A stretch of 55,143 nucleotides of DNA from Acetomicrobium hydrogeniformans (GTDB lineage Bacteria; Synergistota; Synergistia; Synergistales; JAFGMB01). Every line of letters begins with the position of its first letter. Position 1 is the stretch's first letter. The notes under the pieces are model-generated. The model saw nothing but the letters and a program-made list of their open reading frames with translations, was not told where the DNA came from and made no database searches. Below, piece after piece: positions 7,596 through 17,212 of the stretch. Where the stretch lies: positions 1 through 55,143 of the forward strand of contig JAENYO010000004.1 in NCBI GenBank assembly GCA_016841745.1, read 5' to 3'. A program made the translations under genes and the position numbers.

Positions 7596-8465
7596 TCAGA
7601 TGCCAACTTTAAGGATGGTCCGGGCAAATATTCCTATGAGGAATGATATTCCAGCTACTCCGAAACTGAGCATGATCATTTCTGTAAAGGATCTTCTGAA
7701 GGATGTTTCCTTTACCACTGAAAGGAAAAAAGTGAAAACAACGATTATCAGGGCTGCGTTGAGCAGTGTAAAGAAAAGGGCTGCCAGGGGCAGGGTAAAG
7801 ACAAAATAGGGAATTATAAGTATCAGTGTAGCTGCCACGTACATTATTCCCGTGTATATGGAGGCCTTCAGGGGATCAGTATCTGTCTGGATCTCGCTTT
7901 TCTGGGAAAGGTATTCCGATGCCGCCATGGAGAGAGATGCAGATATACCCGTGATCAATCCCGCAGTGCCCGTTATCCTGGTACTTCCGAGAACGAAGGT
8001 CAAACCGGCCAGGGCTCCGGTAAGCTCTACCAATGCATCATTAACACCCAGCACCATGGAGCTGATGTAGGATAGTCTTTCCTCATCTATAAGGGCAATA
8101 AGCTCATGTTCGTGCCTTTCTTCGTCTTCTTTTATTGCAGCCGCCGCTGGAATCTCTGCAGCAAGCTCGTCATAAACCGTTTCTGCTTCTTCCTCTCCCT
8201 GTTCCAAAAATTTTATAACGAATGTTATGCCGAATATCTTTCCTAAAAGGAGATAGAACCCTATTGTGAAAAAGGAGGGGGTTACAACTTCTTTTGTGAA
8301 AGTCTCCAGGGCCATATAATGCCGAAATTCATCGTTGGCTACCTGGGCCAGTACCTCACCGTTATCTCCGCCGACCTGTCTGGAAAGGCGCAGGTATATA
8401 TGATGCTGGGTTATCTCTGCCTTTTGAAGCTTCAGCAGTTTTTGTCTCATTTCTTCGCTTATCAT
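7596..8465 (-). CDS. Rubrerythrin/ferritin-like domain fused to VIT1/CCC1 membrane domain
   Basis: This 289-residue protein has an N-terminal diiron ferritin-like domain (about 1-135; EITQHH, NDEFRHYMAL, DEERHEHEL supply Glu and His ligands). A VIT1/CCC1-type membrane domain with several hydrophobic segments follows (MVLGVNDALVELTGALAGL, ITGISASLSMAASEYLS, then three further helices). Proteins of this membrane-bound ferritin type (MbfA-like) are thought to export or handle iron or manganese under oxidative stress. The frame extends 7 codons upstream to a TTG, but GGGAGGGG sits 5 nt before the ATG at 8465, which is therefore the start. It is divergently oriented from the lipoprotein gene at 8647 and has its own terminator. 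Specific metal and direction of transport are inferred from the family. Confidence 0.85.
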   Translation of the reverse strand: MISEEMRQKLLKLQKAEITQHHIYLRLSRQVGGDNGEVLAQVANDEFRHYMALETFTKEVVTPSFFTIGFYLLLGKIFGITFVIKFLEQGEEEAETVYDELAAEIPAAAAIKEDEERHEHELIALIDEERLSYISSMVLGVNDALVELTGALAGLTFVLGSTRITGTAGLITGISASLSMAASEYLSQKSEIQTDTDPLKASIYTGIMYVAATLILIIPYFVFTLPLAALFFTLLNAALIIVVFTFFLSVVKETSFRRSFTEMIMLSFGVAGISFLIGIFARTILKVGI

Positions 8466-8646
8466 GTTTACCCCTCCCTTGATCAATTTGTTTGCCGATC
8501 TTTTCGATTATATTTCAATTTTATTGCTATGCAATGGATTATCAGGATCCCTTAACCTGATTGTAACAAATAATCAGATATTTGTTCAGGATCTCTTTTC
8601 TGCACTCTATTGTGATAGTATAGTGAATCGATGGGAGGTGGTTCTA

Positions 8647-9231
8647 TTGTTATTAACAAAGGCAGTCAGGTTCTTTCTTTCGGGAATATTTATTCTTCTC
8701 ATGATCTCTTCCTGCACCCCTGCAGAAGATATGGATTATATTGAGTTTCTTATGAGGACGAAACTGAATGACCAATACGAAGAGGATCTCTTGAAAATGG
8801 CGGGACGCAGTTCTCTTGCTGAACGCTGGGAGGTCATGAGTACTGGTGAAAATGACAGGATCAAGGCTTCGGAGAGTTTTGCCATGACGAGATATCTCCT
8901 GGAAGGAAAAGAGATTTCCAGGCTGGATGAAGTTTCGGGATTCATTACTGAAAGGTCTTTTCTGGAGCTCCATTCCTTTCCGCCAGAACCGGGTATATCA
9001 AAACAGCTGATCATTTTACAGGTTTCCCTCGCGTCCATGGCTTCTCTCTGCCGGATAGGAGAACCGGGATCTCTCGGTCTGGCACAGGAGATATTCCTTT
9101 CCATTGAGAAAACCGATGTAATGAGATCCCTGTCATTCCTTAAGGGAGGGAAAGATCTTCAGGTCCTCTCCGAACACTTTTCTACCTCAAGAGCTCTGTT
9201 TGAAAAGGTTTTTAAAGGAAATTTTACCTGA
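8647..9231 (+). CDS. Putative lipoprotein of unknown family (N-terminal part up to in-frame UGA)
   Basis: The start is TTG at 8647, six nt after GGGAGGTG. The longer open frame upstream lacks a ribosome binding site. The N-terminus has a hydrophobic signal (FFLSGIFILLMISSC) with a lipobox ISSC, followed by TPAEDMDYIEF, so this should be a lipid-anchored exported protein. The 194 residues are mostly helical. The protein is a clear paralog of the product at 9865-10698: DYIEF/DYINF, SRLDEVSGFI/ARLDGVEGFI, and the block starting KQLIILQVSLASMASL against KQVLAIESSLAAISFL. The frame stops at TGA 9229-9231, but the same frame stays open for 93 more codons that also match the paralog (see next entry). 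No function is recognised. Confidence 0.7.
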   Translation: MLLTKAVRFFLSGIFILLMISSCTPAEDMDYIEFLMRTKLNDQYEEDLLKMAGRSSLAERWEVMSTGENDRIKASESFAMTRYLLEGKEISRLDEVSGFITERSFLELHSFPPEPGISKQLIILQVSLASMASLCRIGEPGSLGLAQEIFLSIEKTDVMRSLSFLKGGKDLQVLSEHFSTSRALFEKVFKGNFT

Positions 9232-9864: not shown

Positions 9865-10698
9865 TTGAAGAGAACAAAATTACTGTTACCCATTTTATGT
9901 ATTACGGCAGTTCTGATGATTATTACATCCGCATCTTTTGCAGGAGACAAGGATGACTACATCAACTTCTGCCTCCAGAAGGAAAGTGGTCAGGAACTCA
10001 AGAAGGAGCTTCTGTCCAGTCAGAATTCACAAGACCCCCAGGCGGTGCGGGATATGGTCTGGAGCAGTTCGAGTGCCCGTGAGGGAGCCTCAAGATCTCT
10101 TCAGCTAATGGAAATCCTTTTACCCGGTGGAGATACAGCCAGGTTGGATGGAGTTGAAGGTTTTATCGGGACTGATGAGAATCTTCCAAAACAGGTTCTT
10201 GCCATAGAGTCTTCTCTGGCAGCCATTTCCTTTCTGGTTGATATCAGAGAGCCCGATGCTCTATGGCTGGCCCATGATATCTTTGAAGGTCTCAATCAAT
10301 CCACTGCCTTCCGGGACATGGCAGGTGTTGTAGATCAAGGGGAATATGATCAACTGAGCCGGACTCTAACTCAGACAAGAGACCTTTTTGGTCTGCTGTC
10401 AAATAACAGTACCCTGTGGAAAGATCCCCAGAAAAGAAGTCTTCCATTGAACCTGGCCAGGCTTGGAAATCCGACCGATCATGAAAGTTCATCTGTATCG
10501 AAGAGGACAGAAGGATTGGTAACCCTGAATAAAGAGGGCAGGATCACCAGGGGGAATTCCTATTACGGATGGGACACAGGAAATGGTTCTATTACAAGGG
10601 TAAACAAGACTGGTGCATCCGGCAATGGTGGAAATAACAGCGGTTCCGGGGGATCTGACAGTTCCGGATCAGGCGGTGGCGCAAGTGGAGGTTCCTGA
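9865..10698 (+). CDS. Exported protein of unknown family with Gly/Ser-rich tail
   Basis: This 277-residue product starts at TTG 9865, preceded by GGAAGGGAG. Residues 1-26 form a signal peptide (KRTKLLLPILCITAVLMII, cleavage near SFA/GDKDD). The mature part has no lipobox and is mainly helical. The region of about residues 30-190 is homologous to the lipoprotein at 8647 (see there). The end is a low-complexity segment made of Gly, Ser and Asn, ending GGASGGS. Such tails are usually flexible or surface-exposed. The two genes are tandem, same strand, separated by about 350 nt, and probably arose by duplication. A terminator follows at 10775. I do not recognise a named domain. Confidence 0.75.
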   Translation: MKRTKLLLPILCITAVLMIITSASFAGDKDDYINFCLQKESGQELKKELLSSQNSQDPQAVRDMVWSSSSAREGASRSLQLMEILLPGGDTARLDGVEGFIGTDENLPKQVLAIESSLAAISFLVDIREPDALWLAHDIFEGLNQSTAFRDMAGVVDQGEYDQLSRTLTQTRDLFGLLSNNSTLWKDPQKRSLPLNLARLGNPTDHESSSVSKRTEGLVTLNKEGRITRGNSYYGWDTGNGSITRVNKTGASGNGGNNSGSGGSDSSGSGGGASGGS

Positions 10699-11814: not shown

Positions 11815-11900
11815 TGCTTTTCCGCAAAGGCAAAACCGTCGAGAGGCGGTGACGCAAAGCTGCGGGTCCTCAAAGGGGAGGAAAGCCGGGCTGCCTTAAG
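11815..11900 (+). promoter_or_regulatory. Cyclic-di-GMP-I (GEMM-I) riboswitch
   Basis: The conserved core of the GEMM-I aptamer is present in order: AAAGGCAAAACC (11826-11837), a first stem-loop CCGTCGAGAGGCGG, the invariant GACGCAAAGC (11851-11860), then TGCGGGTCC, a second stem-loop and AGCCGGGCTGCC (11884-11895). The base before CAAAA is G, as in c-di-GMP-binding rather than cGAMP-binding members. The aptamer ends about 38 nt before the ATG at 11933. Between them GGGAGA-AAAA-TCTCTT can form a hairpin just before the Shine-Dalgarno GGGGAGG. Control may therefore act on translation or termination. It should govern the exported-protein operon 11933-17212. Confidence 0.9.
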
Positions 11901-11932
11901 GGGAGAAAAATCTCTTAGGGGAGGTTTAAGAA

Positions 11933-12451
11933 ATGAAAAAGTTTATGTTCCTGTTTCTGGTAGTGGCCTTTGTGGCCATTATGGCAGGAGGGGCGATCGC
12001 GGAAGTGTGTTCATGTAATGAACAATTGACCGATACGTTGTTTGTAGATCTTTCGATACTTCCTTGTAATCGCATTGACATCCAGGATTGTTCAATTGCT
12101 CTGTGTACCTATATTCCTTGTGAGGGTATTTGCGCAGATGAAGCAAGTTTCAACTTTGATTTTTGTGCAACAGGAACTGACCCCACTAGAAAACTGGAGG
12201 TTACTATAGACAAGGGAACCTATCCAGGAGATCCTAATGTGGATCTGAAATTACGTATGCCCCAAGCTACGAGTGGAATGATACTGAACTGGAATGGTGT
12301 AAATGACTTTACTCCGCTACCTGGGAATGGTACGGGTCAAACCGGTTTATTGTCATTGATAGTTCATCCCGGTGCAACTGAAATAATTTGTAATGAACCA
12401 ATAGAACTTGACTTTGAGATTACAAGCACTTGGTGTTGTGTATGTAATTGA
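11933..12451 (+). CDS. Cysteine-rich exported protein, possible main subunit of the appendage
   Basis: This 172-residue protein begins at ATG 11933 behind GGGGAGG. It has a classical signal peptide (KKFMFLFLVVAFVAIMAGGAIA, cleavage before EVCSC). The mature protein carries many cysteines: VCSC near the start, three more pairs in the next 45 residues, and STWCCVCN at the very end, so disulfides are likely. Predicted structure is beta-rich (LEVTIDKGTYPGDPNVDLKL, PIELDFEITST). It is the first gene after the c-di-GMP riboswitch and is followed by a hairpin at 12499-12526 that could lower expression of downstream genes. That is the usual arrangement for an abundant pilin or matrix protein. No family was recognised; the pilin role is inferred from position. 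Confidence 0.65.
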   Translation: MKKFMFLFLVVAFVAIMAGGAIAEVCSCNEQLTDTLFVDLSILPCNRIDIQDCSIALCTYIPCEGICADEASFNFDFCATGTDPTRKLEVTIDKGTYPGDPNVDLKLRMPQATSGMILNWNGVNDFTPLPGNGTGQTGLLSLIVHPGATEIICNEPIELDFEITSTWCCVCN

Positions 12452-12498
12452 CAGGATCCTTGCATGCAATGCTGATTTTGTAAACTCAGCATATATTA

Positions 12499-12526
12499 AC
12501 GGGTCGGGGTTTAAACCCTGACCCGT
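12499..12526 (+). terminator. Intercistronic hairpin after the first appendage gene
   Basis: ACGGGTC at 12499-12505 pairs with GACCCGT at 12520-12526, and GGGT/ACCC extends the stem to a short loop. No T-run follows, so it is more likely an RNA-stabilising or attenuating hairpin than a full stop. It lies 48 nt after the stop of the Cys-rich protein gene. Confidence 0.6.
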
Positions 12527-12564
12527 CCTGGAAAGTATTGGAGGGATAGATCATTAAAAAATGC

Positions 12565-13026
12565 ATGCGATATTATCTTTCATTGTTTTTCATAACTCTG
12601 ATGTTATATTGCCCTGGAAATACAGACGGGGTGGAGCTTGTAACGAGTGGAAACTTTCACCTTTTTCAATCCTCGATTCTGACTGGTACTTATCAAAGTT
12701 TTCTCCAAAGTGATGAAGGTGGGGTTTCTTTATCAATGTACGATGTGCCGCCTGAAATCAGATGGAAAGTAATGGTTTCTCTGGAAAGCAATATTCCGGA
12801 TACATCAAAGCTCCACTATTTCCTGAGAAGGACCGGTGATGGGTTGGGCCCTGGTTATGTTTCGGGAGGCAGATCATATTTACGATTGAGCGATCAAGAG
12901 AAAAAACTATTTTCTGGAGAGGGAGAAATAAATAATGTTGAACTTCAATTAAAAATTGATGGAATATCTCCAACTATTCCGGAGTTCCCCTTTGATATTA
13001 AACTTCACTTCAGGGTGGTGATCTGA
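12565..13026 (+). CDS. Exported beta-rich protein, possible minor pilin-like subunit
   Basis: This roughly 153-residue protein has a signal peptide (MRYYLSLFFITLMLYCPGNT). The mature part is beta-rich (VELVTSGNFHLFQSS, WKVMVSLESNIP, NNVELQLKIDGISP) and ends with a hydrophobic alternating strand, DIKLHFRVVI, as pilin-like subunits often do. The ATG at 12565 lies 19 nt from GGAGGG (12540-12545). Three in-frame codons earlier, ATT AAA AAA TGC at 12553 puts a start 7 nt from that site and gives a typical basic n-region (MKKCMRYY), so an unusual AUU start at 12553 is possible. The stop is only 2 nt before the chaperone-like gene. No domain family is recognised. Confidence 0.65.
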   Translation: MRYYLSLFFITLMLYCPGNTDGVELVTSGNFHLFQSSILTGTYQSFLQSDEGGVSLSMYDVPPEIRWKVMVSLESNIPDTSKLHYFLRRTGDGLGPGYVSGGRSYLRLSDQEKKLFSGEGEINNVELQLKIDGISPTIPEFPFDIKLHFRVVI

Positions 13027-13028
13027 TC

Positions 13029-13850
13029 ATGAAACGACCAAGAGTGACTGTTATTTCGTTGATATTTTTAATAGTGTCTCTATTTTTCGGATATGGAGAG
13101 GCTTTTGATGTACAAGGTGACCTTTTTCGTGTCGACCATCTAAATCCGGGGGGTGAATGTCAGGGAGTAATTGGATTATATAATCCATCAGACTCTCCGG
13201 AAAGTATTCAAGTTTATATTACGGATTATTTCTTTTCTGCGGACGGAACTGTTTTGCATGAAGATCCATCTACCAGTAAACGCTCTAATGCTCAATGGAT
13301 AAACTTTCAACCCAAGGAGATCCGGCTGGAAGCGAAGCAAAGAGGGCGTATAGAATACAGGATCAAGGTTCCTGAAGATGTTACAGATGTGGGGACTTTT
13401 TGGAGCCTGGTACATTTAAAACCTGTTCTCGAGGACTCCTTGATGCCAAAAGATAGTTCAAATGAGAAGAAAGAAGTAAAAATGAAATTCAAGACACGAA
13501 GCGGATATAGCATACAGATGATAACAAATATAGGTAATGGCGGAAATTGTAAACTGGAATTACTTCAACCAAGTTTAGAAAATAGAGCAGGTATGTATTC
13601 TTTAAAGGTTGATTTTAAAAGTGTCGGAAACCTGATGGCAAATGTAATCCCATGGGTAGAGATCTATGACCATACTGGACAGAAGGTGGGTACCGTGGAA
13701 GGGAATAAAAGATCTATCTATCCTGGATGTTCTGTTAGGATATATTTCCCTTTGGGGCAACTGAAACAAGGTGAATATAAGGCTTTACTCATTGCCGACT
13801 GCGGTAACGACCAGGTTTTTGGTGGTCAGTATGAGCTGGAGATCAGGTAG
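13029..13850 (+). CDS. Periplasmic PapD-like fimbrial chaperone (divergent)
   Basis: This 273-residue exported protein has a signal peptide (RPRVTVISLIFLIVSLFFGY, cleavage near GEA/FDVQG). The first mature domain (about 25-140) has the immunoglobulin-like pattern of pilus chaperones: FRVDHLNPGGECQGVIGLYN, then SPESIQVYITDYFFS, PKEIRLEAKQRGRIEYRIKV. The second domain (about 165-273) is also beta-rich (LKVDFKSVGNLMANVIPWVE). Its length and its position before an outer-membrane usher-like gene are as in alternative chaperone-usher operons. Sequence similarity to classical PapD/FimC is low, and a DUF916-like cell-surface adaptor is another possible description. The last 20 nt of the gene overlap the start of the usher-like gene, so the two are coupled. 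Confidence 0.6.
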   Translation: MKRPRVTVISLIFLIVSLFFGYGEAFDVQGDLFRVDHLNPGGECQGVIGLYNPSDSPESIQVYITDYFFSADGTVLHEDPSTSKRSNAQWINFQPKEIRLEAKQRGRIEYRIKVPEDVTDVGTFWSLVHLKPVLEDSLMPKDSSNEKKEVKMKFKTRSGYSIQMITNIGNGGNCKLELLQPSLENRAGMYSLKVDFKSVGNLMANVIPWVEIYDHTGQKVGTVEGNKRSIYPGCSVRIYFPLGQLKQGEYKALLIADCGNDQVFGGQYELEIR

Positions 13851-16695
13851 ACCATTTATTACCAGAGTTAATAATATCCGGTTTTATCCTTTTTTGGTAT
13901 GTATTCTTGTTGCCTTTTTCTGTTCTCCTGTTTTCGCTAAAGGTAACGGGGTGGAAGTCCTTACAGGGGGACCCCGTTTTTTTGAGACGTTGCCTGGCCG
14001 GACTCTTACAATTGCCTTTCTTGTTTCGAATAAAACCCAAAACTCTTTGGAACTGGTAGAAAAACTGGAACTCCCCGAGCAATGGCAGAGGATAATTCCC
14101 CTCTCCTCCTTCCGTCTGCCTCCGAATGGAAGCACCACAAGGATCCTGGCTTTTCATATCCCCCCCTCAAGTCCTGCAAAAGAGTACGAAATTACCTACA
14201 CAGTTCGCGATAAAGACAGGTACTCCATCCAGGACGGTGAGAGGGTAAGGGTAAAGGTCCTCCCTGTGGAGGATGTTTCATTGATGTTGGAGGAGAAGCC
14301 CTTCAATGTAATTGCCGGAAATCCCTACGAGGTAAAAGTGAGACTCATCAACGGAGGCAACTCCGACGAAAATTTTTTAATAAAGGTAAAGAGTCGGCAA
14401 AATAATCCCCTGACCTACTCCCCCTCTGAGGTTTTCCTTAAGTCTGGAGAGAGCGGACTTATAACCATAAATGTTGAAACTCATGCAGATATGGGAACGA
14501 TGAGAGAATATCTGGCAGTTGAAACCTATTCTAAGGAAGATCCCGGTACCAGGCTTGATTATCTGTCCATAGGTGTGGAAAGAATCGGACAGATCGATTT
14601 CAAGGCCGAACCCTATCATTTTATTCCCACGACCCTCTCCTTCGCTGTAGGTGGAGATAACGGGGATGACGGCGAAGATGATTTTTACCTGCAGTGGAGT
14701 GGATACGGCAGCATAGATGAAGAAGGAACCAGGATCGTAGATTTTTTATTCCGAGGGCCTGATACCCAGGGGGGAGGGTATTTTTCAGAAGAAGACGAAT
14801 ATTATTTTAACTATTATGAGCCCCGTTTCGACATACTTCTGGGTGATCAGAGCTACGATCTGTCTGACCTTACAGCCAATTATACCTATGGGCGTGGTTA
14901 TGGAATAAATTACCGTCCCGGAGCCGGTGATCTTGAGGTTGGTGGTCATTATGTTGAGAATCGGGACGAACCTTCAGAAGAAGAACAAGGTTTTCACGCT
15001 AGTTACCAGGTCAGGGAAGATATTGGCCTTCGCCTGAACTACCTGGATAAAAGAGAAGTGCAAAATTCAAGGAATGTAAAGGATGAGATCTGGAGCCTTG
15101 AGGCCGATTATGATCTTGGAAGATACGGGCAGCTTCTGGTTGAATATGGTATTTGCGATTCCACCAGACCCGGTTCAGAAGAAGACGACGCGTACCTTAT
15201 CGAATACAACGGTTATTTTGATGATGTGTCTTTTTATGTTAACCGCATTCATGCGGGTCCCGATTATGAGGGATATTACACTGGTTATGATTATACCTCC
15301 GCCTTTGTGGGCTTTCCCCTGTCTTCGAGGCTGAGAATGGGCCTTTCATACATCGATTACGAGGATCTTATAGATCCCGATGAAAGATCTACTTCATTTA
15401 ACGCGGAAACGACCTGGAGGGCCTACATGGACTACACCCTTGGCAATGGCTGGTACACCACTTTCGGCTATGAGAACTTTGAGCGGGTGGATCAGCTGGA
15501 ACCTAAGGATGATGACTATAATGTGGATTCAGTATGGCTTCGAATAGGACGGTCCCTGCCCATGTGGAGCTATATGGTAGAGGCCCGGAGGGGTAAAAGG
15601 GACGATCACCTAGCTGATGAAACTACCCGGGGCTGGAATTACAGGGTTTACGTTACCCACAGGCCTTCGTCCAGCCTTTTTTTCAGTGTATTTGCAAATT
15701 TTGGTGATGACCTGGCTTCGGATATCAGGGGACTCAGAACATCGAATAGCCTTGGTTTTTTCCTTTCCTGGCAGGTTCGGAACAACTGGCTCCTCAACAT
15801 GTGGTACCGTAAGTCTGGATTTGACTCAGATACTAACGAAGAAGAGGATGAGTATGAGATCCAATCTCTCTATACCTTCAGGAACGGACACTCCCTTGAA
15901 TTTGCCCTTCGCCATGAAGTGGGGGAGGATATTGAGGACGAAACGGAATATCGGCTGACCTACAACATCCCCATAAAGATAAAAACTGAAAAAAGAAAGG
16001 ATCTTGGTACCATTGAGGGCCGGATCTACGACGCCCAGATGGACGGTAACCCTGGTCTGGCAGATGTGATAGTCAAATGTCAGGGAAGGACAACCATAAC
16101 AGCCGTTGACGGATCCTTTATACTGTCTCCTCTTATTCCGGGTGAGCATGTCCTTGAAATTGACCGTCAGTCCATAGGCTGGAACCGGGTGCCGAATCTC
16201 CAAAGCCCCATAACTAATTATATCAAGGGCATGGGTGCAACTACGAATATAGAGATAGGCATAGTGGATAGCTCTACCATTGCAGGGAAAGTGGTTGCTG
16301 TTTCACACCAGGAAAAGGGAGTCGATCCAGCCGGGGATGAACAGAAGGGGAGCGTATCCCTTGTTGGAACTGGAAGGGCAGAAGATTATTCAACTTCAAA
16401 GATACTTCCCAATATTCTAGTCGAAGTAAAGGCGGGAGACCATGTAATACGCAAGCTCACCAATAGTGAAGGGGAGTTCAAATTTGAAGGTCTTTACCCT
16501 GCAAACTGGGCCCTTACTGTATATGATAATAGTCTTCCACCTTACACTTACGTTGAAAATGCGAAAGAAAATCTAGTCCTTCAACCGGGTCAGGAACTTA
16601 TGCTTACGAAGAGAGTACTACCAAAGGTGCGCAATATCCAGATGCTCGTCCAGGGTGAAAAAATAACCAGCAAAAAGGTGAAGGTAACGAATTGA
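13831..16695 (+). CDS. Usher-like outer-membrane beta-barrel protein with C-terminal carboxypeptidase-regulatory-like domains
   Basis: From the ATG at 13831 (overlapping the chaperone gene) the product has 954 residues. A signal peptide ends near CSPVFA (residue 36). Residues of about 40-265 form two Ig-like domains (LVSNKTQNSLELVEKLELPE, KVRLINGGNSDENFLIKVKS). From about 275 to 720 many alternating amphipathic, aromatic-rich strands occur (GYGINYRPGAGDLEVGGHYV, LRLNYLDKREV, YTTFGYENFERVD, LLNMWYRKSGFD), as in an outer-membrane barrel. The C-terminal region has two small beta-sandwich domains of the carboxypeptidase-regulatory type (GTIEGRIYDAQMDGNPGLAD about 732, and EVKAGDHVIRKLTNSEGEFK about 865). 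A barrel followed by such domains and preceded by a chaperone is the design of alternative fimbrial ushers. No classical FimD signature was seen, so usher remains an inference. Confidence 0.6.
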   Translation: MSWRSGRPFITRVNNIRFYPFLVCILVAFFCSPVFAKGNGVEVLTGGPRFFETLPGRTLTIAFLVSNKTQNSLELVEKLELPEQWQRIIPLSSFRLPPNGSTTRILAFHIPPSSPAKEYEITYTVRDKDRYSIQDGERVRVKVLPVEDVSLMLEEKPFNVIAGNPYEVKVRLINGGNSDENFLIKVKSRQNNPLTYSPSEVFLKSGESGLITINVETHADMGTMREYLAVETYSKEDPGTRLDYLSIGVERIGQIDFKAEPYHFIPTTLSFAVGGDNGDDGEDDFYLQWSGYGSIDEEGTRIVDFLFRGPDTQGGGYFSEEDEYYFNYYEPRFDILLGDQSYDLSDLTANYTYGRGYGINYRPGAGDLEVGGHYVENRDEPSEEEQGFHASYQVREDIGLRLNYLDKREVQNSRNVKDEIWSLEADYDLGRYGQLLVEYGICDSTRPGSEEDDAYLIEYNGYFDDVSFYVNRIHAGPDYEGYYTGYDYTSAFVGFPLSSRLRMGLSYIDYEDLIDPDERSTSFNAETTWRAYMDYTLGNGWYTTFGYENFERVDQLEPKDDDYNVDSVWLRIGRSLPMWSYMVEARRGKRDDHLADETTRGWNYRVYVTHRPSSSLFFSVFANFGDDLASDIRGLRTSNSLGFFLSWQVRNNWLLNMWYRKSGFDSDTNEEEDEYEIQSLYTFRNGHSLEFALRHEVGEDIEDETEYRLTYNIPIKIKTEKRKDLGTIEGRIYDAQMDGNPGLADVIVKCQGRTTITAVDGSFILSPLIPGEHVLEIDRQSIGWNRVPNLQSPITNYIKGMGATTNIEIGIVDSSTIAGKVVAVSHQEKGVDPAGDEQKGSVSLVGTGRAEDYSTSKILPNILVEVKAGDHVIRKLTNSEGEFKFEGLYPANWALTVYDNSLPPYTYVENAKENLVLQPGQELMLTKRVLPKVRNIQMLVQGEKITSKKVKVTN

Positions 16696-16738
16696 AGAGA
16701 GTTCCTGCTGGTTTATCTTTGTTAAGATGGTGGTGGTC

Positions 16739-17212
16739 ATGGTTAATTGTAGAAAGTACTTATTGGTTCTTATAATCATTATTGCCCTTACAGGTTCCGC
16801 ATGGGCAAGTGACACGCAAACAGTTACAGTGACCATAGAGATCCCCCAGATAAACTGGATAAAGATGGAGGATCAGGGAGTCTCTATTCAATCTTATATT
16901 GGATTTCCCTCAAAAAGTGATGAGTTTGCCTATACAATTTCGGCTACCGGTCGTCGACCCCGGGTGATCATGGCCCGACTGGAAAACCTCTTACCCAAGG
17001 GGTGGAGGGTAATACTGGAGATGGATCCCCTGGAAGGTGGAAAACCTAACGGTCCCATAATTCTTTCCCTTCAGGAAAAAGTGGTAATGAAAAATATCTG
17101 GGGTATCTTCAATCAGAAAGGAACAGGAAAAATAAAGATCGAAACTGATATGGATGCTTCTCAAGGAACGGGAGGTATGAATATAATATTCGTGGTAAAA
17201 GAGGGTATTTAG
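16739..17212 (+). CDS. Exported beta-strand protein, possible pilin or tip subunit
   Basis: This protein of about 157 residues starts at ATG 16739, a few nt after GGTGGTGG; an in-frame ATG at 16727 has no ribosome binding site. The signal peptide is NCRKYLLVLIIIIALTGSAW with cleavage near WAS/DTQT. The mature sequence begins with a strong strand (TVTVTIEIPQINWIKM) and ends with another (GGMNIIFVVKEGI). Between them is one compact beta-rich domain. This fits a small fimbrial subunit with a donor strand, last in the operon and 43 nt after the usher-like gene. The upstream partner genes, not a family match, support the role. No terminator was recognised in the 211 nt that follow. Confidence 0.6.
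   Translation: MVNCRKYLLVLIIIIALTGSAWASDTQTVTVTIEIPQINWIKMEDQGVSIQSYIGFPSKSDEFAYTISATGRRPRVIMARLENLLPKGWRVILEMDPLEGGKPNGPIILSLQEKVVMKNIWGIFNQKGTGKIKIETDMDASQGTGGMNIIFVVKEGI

Follow-up and report, generated by a model that had tools for sequence, protein, structure and literature searches.

A putative c-di-GMP-responsive operon for a chaperone-usher-like surface fibre in Acetomicrobium hydrogeniformans

Chaperone-usher pili are textbook machines. Their subunits are joined by donor-strand exchange, in which rod subunits carry an N-terminal donor strand and tip subunits lack it. The described systems (FimC/FimD, PapD/PapC, Caf1M, archaic Csu) combine small exported subunits with a two-Ig chaperone and a barrel usher. 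The WxL/WxLIP (DUF916-DUF3324) clusters of Gram-positive bacteria also contain a partner protein of two Ig domains that has a long loop, and WxLIP has been proposed and modelled to insert a strand of this loop into WxL, thereby completing the sandwich of its client (PMC10599100). WxLIP carries a transmembrane helix and binds WxL proteins that are attached to the peptidoglycan.

The operon analyzed here lies on a stretch of 55,143 nt from Acetomicrobium hydrogeniformans, referred to as the window, and encodes five proteins, P1 to P5. With the chaperone-usher pathway it shares the three kinds of components, the domain order of the predicted usher P4 (N-domain, barrel, two C-terminal sandwiches) with ushers as top PDB matches, and rod-type subunits with an alternating-hydrophobic N-terminal extension next to a tip-type subunit without one. 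It differs in that Pfam or PROSITE-type usher, chaperone and pilin signatures are missing, in that the predicted chaperone P3 is nearer to WxLIP, and in that the tip-type subunit P2 is single-domain. P4 departs from the known ushers by its 26 predicted strands, a plugless barrel, two Ig domains ahead of this barrel and C-terminal domains of the CarboxypepD_reg type. In contrast to the WxL/WxLIP clusters, the operon encodes a putative outer-membrane barrel (P4), and neither a transmembrane helix in P3 nor a WxL domain was found. The anatomy is chaperone-usher-like, yet, since the signatures and the chaperone and subunit comparisons were negative, the operon is not a member of the pathway by the sequence definitions tested.

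We consider it probable that positions 11820 to 17212 form a single operon which responds to c-di-GMP and makes a surface fibre by chaperone-usher-like donor-strand exchange. This reading is built on the gene order, the aptamer match, the predicted folds, the conserved gene set and the extension pattern of the subunits.

Aptamer, leader and gene order

The features of the operon are the following.

11820-11899, forward strand: c-di-GMP-I (GEMM-I) riboswitch aptamer (cmscan, RF03167 and RF01051)
11900-11932, forward strand: expression platform with Shine-Dalgarno sequence GGGGAGG at 11918-11924 (sequence)
11933-12451, forward strand: P1, 172 aa, Cys-rich type-1 subunit (ORF; type-1 profile, E 3.3e-8; alignments)
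12499-12526, forward strand: hairpin in the gap from P1 to P2, strongly folded (-24.6 kcal/mol, z -3.1)
12565-13026, forward strand: P2, 153 aa, type-2 subunit without N-terminal extension (type-2 profile; alignment)
13029-13850, forward strand: P3, 273 aa, predicted PapD/WxLIP-like two-Ig periplasmic chaperone (AlphaFold2, Foldseek)
13831-16695, forward strand: P4, 954 aa, predicted usher-like outer-membrane protein (AlphaFold2, Foldseek, hhalign)
16727-17212, forward strand: P5, 161 aa, the other type-1 subunit, its extension 17 residues long, behind the usher gene (type-1 profile)

The GEMM-I aptamer that the first-pass annotation had placed ahead of the operon was recovered as the sole Rfam match within the window, scoring 61.8 bits with RF03167 (c-di-GMP-I-GGC; gathering score 59, E 3.1e-12) and 65.8 bits with RF01051 (threshold 35). 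The five exported-protein genes of that annotation were likewise confirmed in place as same-strand ORFs, all with signal-peptide-like N-termini. P1 starts 33 nt past the aptamer end, and the P3 and P4 genes share 20 nt. Judging from their translations, the genes after P5 have no relation to the operon, one ORF being nitroreductase-like and others of the cobalamin type. Upstream of the riboswitch, the window encodes two exported proteins (8464-9231 and 9865-10698) that look mutually paralogous and match no family; the latter ends in a Gly/Ser-rich tail.

The residues G20 and A47 of the Vc2 aptamer are of the c-di-GMP type. In an alignment to Vc2, the window aptamer carries G and A at these positions; c-di-GMP is therefore to be expected as ligand even though the GGC variant is the best Rfam model. 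An altered ligand, considered because of this variant assignment, was rejected since A and not G occupies the position of A47. Among c-di-GMP-I riboswitches the window aptamer is an ordinary member, and the unusual part is the genes it would control. The platform sequence, CTTAAGGGGAGAAAAATCTCTTAGGGGAGGTTTAAGAA, has a near-identical copy in a relative of the same family (L037), where an aptamer of 57.1 bits also precedes the operon. When the RNA was folded with the aptamer and without it, the Shine-Dalgarno region stayed mostly paired in both states, and therefore neither an ON nor an OFF switch is called.

A GEMM-I aptamer (59.6 bits) was also found ahead of a homologous operon in a different, unrelated small phylum (L047). 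There, the aptamer is followed by an intrinsic-terminator-like hairpin with a U-run (both within L047:2220-2360), then by an ORF for a small exported protein and by the pilus operon; this genome has 18 GEMM-I matches above cut-off. Four other Synergistota operons examined had no aptamer, so the predicted riboswitch control seems to be lineage-specific. Just upstream of one of these aptamer-less operons (L033) are genes which, from their translations, read as a response regulator of the LuxR type and a kinase-like protein.

The source genome (3.04 Mb, 15 contigs) contains 18 GEMM-I riboswitches and 10 GGDEF domains. Two clusters of four GEMM-I aptamers each (G000:C1:13648-18728, L012; G000:C4:227961-237358, L014) precede large secreted proteins, several of which have Synergist-CTERM-like C-termini. 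These clusters suggest a broad c-di-GMP surface regulon in this genome. A change from G20 to A is the mark of cGAMP-type GEMM-Ib riboswitches. Two aptamers of the second cluster (G000:C4:234426-234511 and G000:C4:227961-228047) have A in place of G at the G20 equivalent, and one of the two is apparently also altered near the C92 position.

The hairpin noted behind P1 in the first-pass annotation indeed folds strongly, but as an intrinsic terminator it is ruled out, because a U-tract is missing. It is a probable mRNA processing or stability element. A hairpin of this kind would fit an element that sets a highly expressed first gene apart from the rest of the operon.

Subunits and conservation of the gene set

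The subunits fall into two types that differ at the N-terminus of the mature protein. P5 starts with SDTQTVTVTIEIPQINW followed by IKM, and P1 has a longer, Cys-rich version of this extension, EVCSCNEQLTDTLFVDLSILPCNR. The profile assignments of P2 and P5 are to be read with the fact that both are within the seeds of the respective type-2 and type-1 profiles. In all 19 tabulated type-1 subunits, P5 among them, exactly 17 residues separate the cleavage site from the first conserved core strand, with signal-peptide cleavage sites and the table itself set by eye. Positions 8, 10, 12 and 15 of this extension are hydrophobic in 19 of 19, position 9 never and position 11 seldom. The extension is missing in all 12 tabulated chaperone-adjacent subunits, whose mature proteins start 0-1 residues before the core strand and whose genes all begin 437-599 nt ahead of the chaperone gene. 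These 12 include P2 and type-1-like proteins that stand in for type 2 at three loci (L043, L047, L051).

Extension-bearing and extension-less subunits together reproduce, as far as their sequences indicate, the rod/tip pattern of donor-strand exchange. P2 is probably a tip or initiating subunit, because the donor-strand-like extension is missing, and P1 is the probable major subunit. The two types share at most a distant kinship, with hhalign values of 69% including and 35% excluding the signal peptides. An apparent link of the subunits to K-12 pilins (hhalign 47.5%) proved to be a signal-peptide artefact and fell to 0.1-0.8% once the signal peptides were removed. P1 and P5 matched nothing in Pfam, and P2 gave a chance-level match only. 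At one locus of an Acetomicrobium MAG (L035:6375-7496 and L039:5928-7049), type-1 and type-2 subunits are fused into a protein of 373 residues. The subunits of a Bacteroidetes MAG (L059) depart from the extension/no-extension pattern, and the genes downstream of its operon look like those for GldM and GldL of type IX secretion/gliding (L059:11205-13628).

The nearest relative with the operon is the Synergistales MAG of the same family mentioned above (L037, genome G001), with a P4 of 71% identity, which bears out the Synergistota-like affiliation given in the first-pass annotation. Homologues of P3 and P4 are neighbours in 5 of the 60 relatives sampled, and a profile search found P4 matches, a few of them partial, in 14 of 188 Synergistota genomes. 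A contig search by a single P4 sequence gave no match; a six-sequence P4 profile yielded 23 loci in named genomes. Outside the Synergistota these were assigned to Zixibacteria, Armatimonadetes, Deltaproteobacteria, Syntrophales, Desulfobacula, Krumholzibacteriia, Verrucomicrobiota, Clostridia, Bacteroidetes GWF2, Nitrococcus and the isolate Thiohalocapsa marina DSM 19078 (L054), where individual taxon assignments may be wrong because most of the genomes are MAGs. Full-length P4 occurs in about 6 of 96 sampled genomes of the Thiohalocapsa family, in 4 of 119 of the phylum of L040 and in 3 of 3 of that of L047. Weak partial matches in Zixibacteria and the Thiohalocapsa family mostly reflected C-terminal domains that are shared, and they were left out of the count of systems. 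Hence, going by these homologues, the distribution appears patchy yet widespread over many phyla.

The gene set is well conserved. In all 23 loci a chaperone (P3) homologue is directly ahead of the usher (P4) homologue, and upstream of it are type-1 subunits and usually one type-2 subunit adjoining the chaperone gene. In-frame TAG codons were flagged in three P4 homologues; recoding was rejected for the one inspected (L047), in which the TAG precedes the real start.

P3 and P4 between known systems

The AlphaFold2 model of P4 (20 sequences; pLDDT 85, pTM 0.61) consists of a signal peptide, two Ig domains (41-143 and 149-252), a 26-strand barrel (262-721) and two C-terminal sandwiches (726-826 and 853-931). 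This agrees with the layout of an usher, for which a barrel of about 24 strands, an N-terminal domain and two C-terminal sandwiches are characteristic. In Foldseek the top PDB match was FimD (4e-13), followed by PapC (3e-8) and LptD (8e-8). TM-scores were only 0.25-0.33, and other kinds of beta-rich proteins also scored well, so the matches support the domain order rather than the precise fold. Pfam contributed CarboxypepD_reg (5.8e-9), a weak Porin_4 match (8.6e-6) and Ig-like domains. Accordingly, the barrel, the Ig-like and the CarboxypepD_reg-like parts described in the first pass hold, but the in-barrel plug does not: the longest gap between strands of the model is about 14 residues, which leaves P4 without a plug of the FimD type.

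For P3, AlphaFold2 (22-sequence alignment; pLDDT 88.3, pTM 0.77) predicts two beta-sandwich domains with a disordered loop of about 25 residues (~134-158) between the strands 122-132 and 160-168. PapD-type chaperones have their F1-G1 region at the place that matches this loop. Two Ig-like domains, a donating strand and an F1-G1 loop are thus all present in the model. The best PDB match is Enterococcus WxLIP bound to WxL (6e-15); the next ones belong to the PapD family, Caf1M (3.5e-10), CfaA (6.5e-10) and CsuC (4e-9), then FimC. Hence, the two-domain PapD-like architecture proposed for P3 is borne out by the model and its PapD-family matches, but among solved structures it is the Gram-positive WxLIP, not PapD, that comes nearest to the chaperone. 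With P4 modelled as a barrel and P3 as a two-Ig protein, two of the three outcomes that the first-pass annotation named as refuting did not arise, and the chaperone-usher-like interpretation of the operon is retained.

None of the usher, PapD and pilin models of Pfam and NCBIfam matched P1 to P5. Pfam returned general beta-domains only and NCBIfam nothing functional, and scans of the homologues gave the same picture. Searches of PDB sequences with all four family profiles revealed no usher, pilin or chaperone. The open-access papers searched dealt with chaperone-usher and WxL systems separately, and none was found on this system or joining both. Within Pfam, NCBIfam, PDB sequences and these open-access papers, the system is therefore undescribed. 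To this extent the earlier suggestion of an undescribed system in the Synergistota holds; a phylum-specific system it is not, since it occurs in many phyla.

The operon could encode a divergent true member of the chaperone-usher pathway, e.g. near the archaic class, that has drifted past the reach of the HMMs and lost its plug. We regard this as possible, if somewhat doubtful. The gene order and fold assignments are the same as in chaperone-usher systems, and the P4 family aligned with the seven E. coli K-12 ushers over ~349 collinear columns at an hhalign value of 61.5% (59.7% without signal peptides), compared with 1.0% for TonB receptors, 1.7% for LptD and 3.5-7.0% for reversed profiles. 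This points to a weak usher-specific signal in the sequences, and an LGD...RG motif in the P4 barrel resembles the LGD...FRG of the K-12 ushers. Against this stands the lack of Pfam usher, PapD and pilin matches in all operons scanned. PF00577 matched neither P4 nor the homologues scanned, and none of the 188 Synergistota genomes searched gave a match, not even the 14 in which P4 was matched, although the E. coli control was positive; Pfam PapD matched neither P3 nor its homologues scanned. The PROSITE-type fimbrial usher signature, [VL][PASQ][PAS]G[PAD][FY]x[LI][DNQSTAP][DNH][LIVMFY], was found in 0 of 20 P4 homologues versus 7 of 7 K-12 ushers, and the PROSITE-type chaperone signature in 0 of 22 P3 homologues versus 6 of 8 K-12 chaperones, these K-12 proteins having served as positive checks. 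A link of P3 to PapD-family chaperones (hhalign 17.6%) was a signal-peptide artefact and dropped to 1.3% upon its removal. The plugless P4 and a P3 that is structurally nearer to WxLIP than to any PapD-family chaperone also speak against this explanation.

The similarity to WxLIP raises a second explanation, a diderm counterpart of the WxL/WxLIP clusters in which P3 would stabilize surface Ig-like proteins by strand insertion, no polymer would be formed, and P4 would act as anchor or exporter. WxLIP bound to WxL is the best structural match of P3, and a strand of its loop completes the WxL sandwich in a model (PMC10599100). The WxLIP_PGBD model (PF06030) matched P3 below cut-off (18.8 bits versus 27.3, E 0.0017), and weak matches were found in 5 of 6 P3 family members. 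However, P3 has no C-terminal transmembrane helix, its last beta-strand being at residue 272 of 273, and the WxL domain model found nothing in the subunits searched. The co-occurrence of extension-bearing and extension-less subunits and the usher matches of P4 argue against it as well, and we consider it unlikely. Still more improbable is that P4 is an unrelated outer-membrane porin or receptor beside secreted Ig proteins, its usher likeness being convergence among beta-rich models, as the Porin_4 match, the low TM-scores and the presence of LptD, BtuB and axonemal Ig proteins among the Foldseek matches might suggest, since ushers outrank LptD and TonB receptors by at least 5 orders of E-value, the hhalign values separate them just as clearly, and the linkage of P4 to P3 and the subunits is invariant.

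Proposed assembly and implications

For the favoured reading, a fibre built by donor-strand exchange, the following assembly may be envisaged. In the periplasm, P3 would donate a strand of the long flexible loop in its first domain to incomplete Ig-like subunits and so cap them, and P4 would provide the outer-membrane assembly pore. P2, without a donor strand, would enter first as the tip. The Cys-rich P1 would polymerize behind it as the rod, with each N-terminal extension entering the preceding subunit, and P5 may be an additional subunit with a donor strand, either minor or terminal. Through the leader aptamer, production would be coupled to c-di-GMP. In this scheme the polymerization, the part played by each subunit and the export through P4 are inferred, as are the ligand and the sign of regulation.

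The operon may represent a separate class of diderm donor-strand-exchange fibres, with a WxLIP-type chaperone, a plugless 26-strand usher, subunits outside the known families, occurrence in many phyla (among them the Synergistota, in which no usher profile matched) and, in some lineages, direct riboswitch control. We advance this tentatively, as a serious candidate that falls just short of being our expectation. Such a class could be an evolutionary link from the Gram-positive WxL clusters to the Gram-negative chaperone-usher pili. Once structures and a phylogeny exist, there is a fair chance that the plugless operon type will be given a class of its own.

The operon gives the Synergistota and parts of many other phyla a candidate assembly line that follows the logic of chaperone-usher pili but is made of proteins that current databases do not recognize. 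The missing in-barrel plug makes the gating of P4 a direct question, and the likeness of P3 to WxLIP opens a shared origin of WxL surface complexes and pilus chaperones to testing. Control by the riboswitch, if true, would link fibre output directly to c-di-GMP, with no protein regulator in between.
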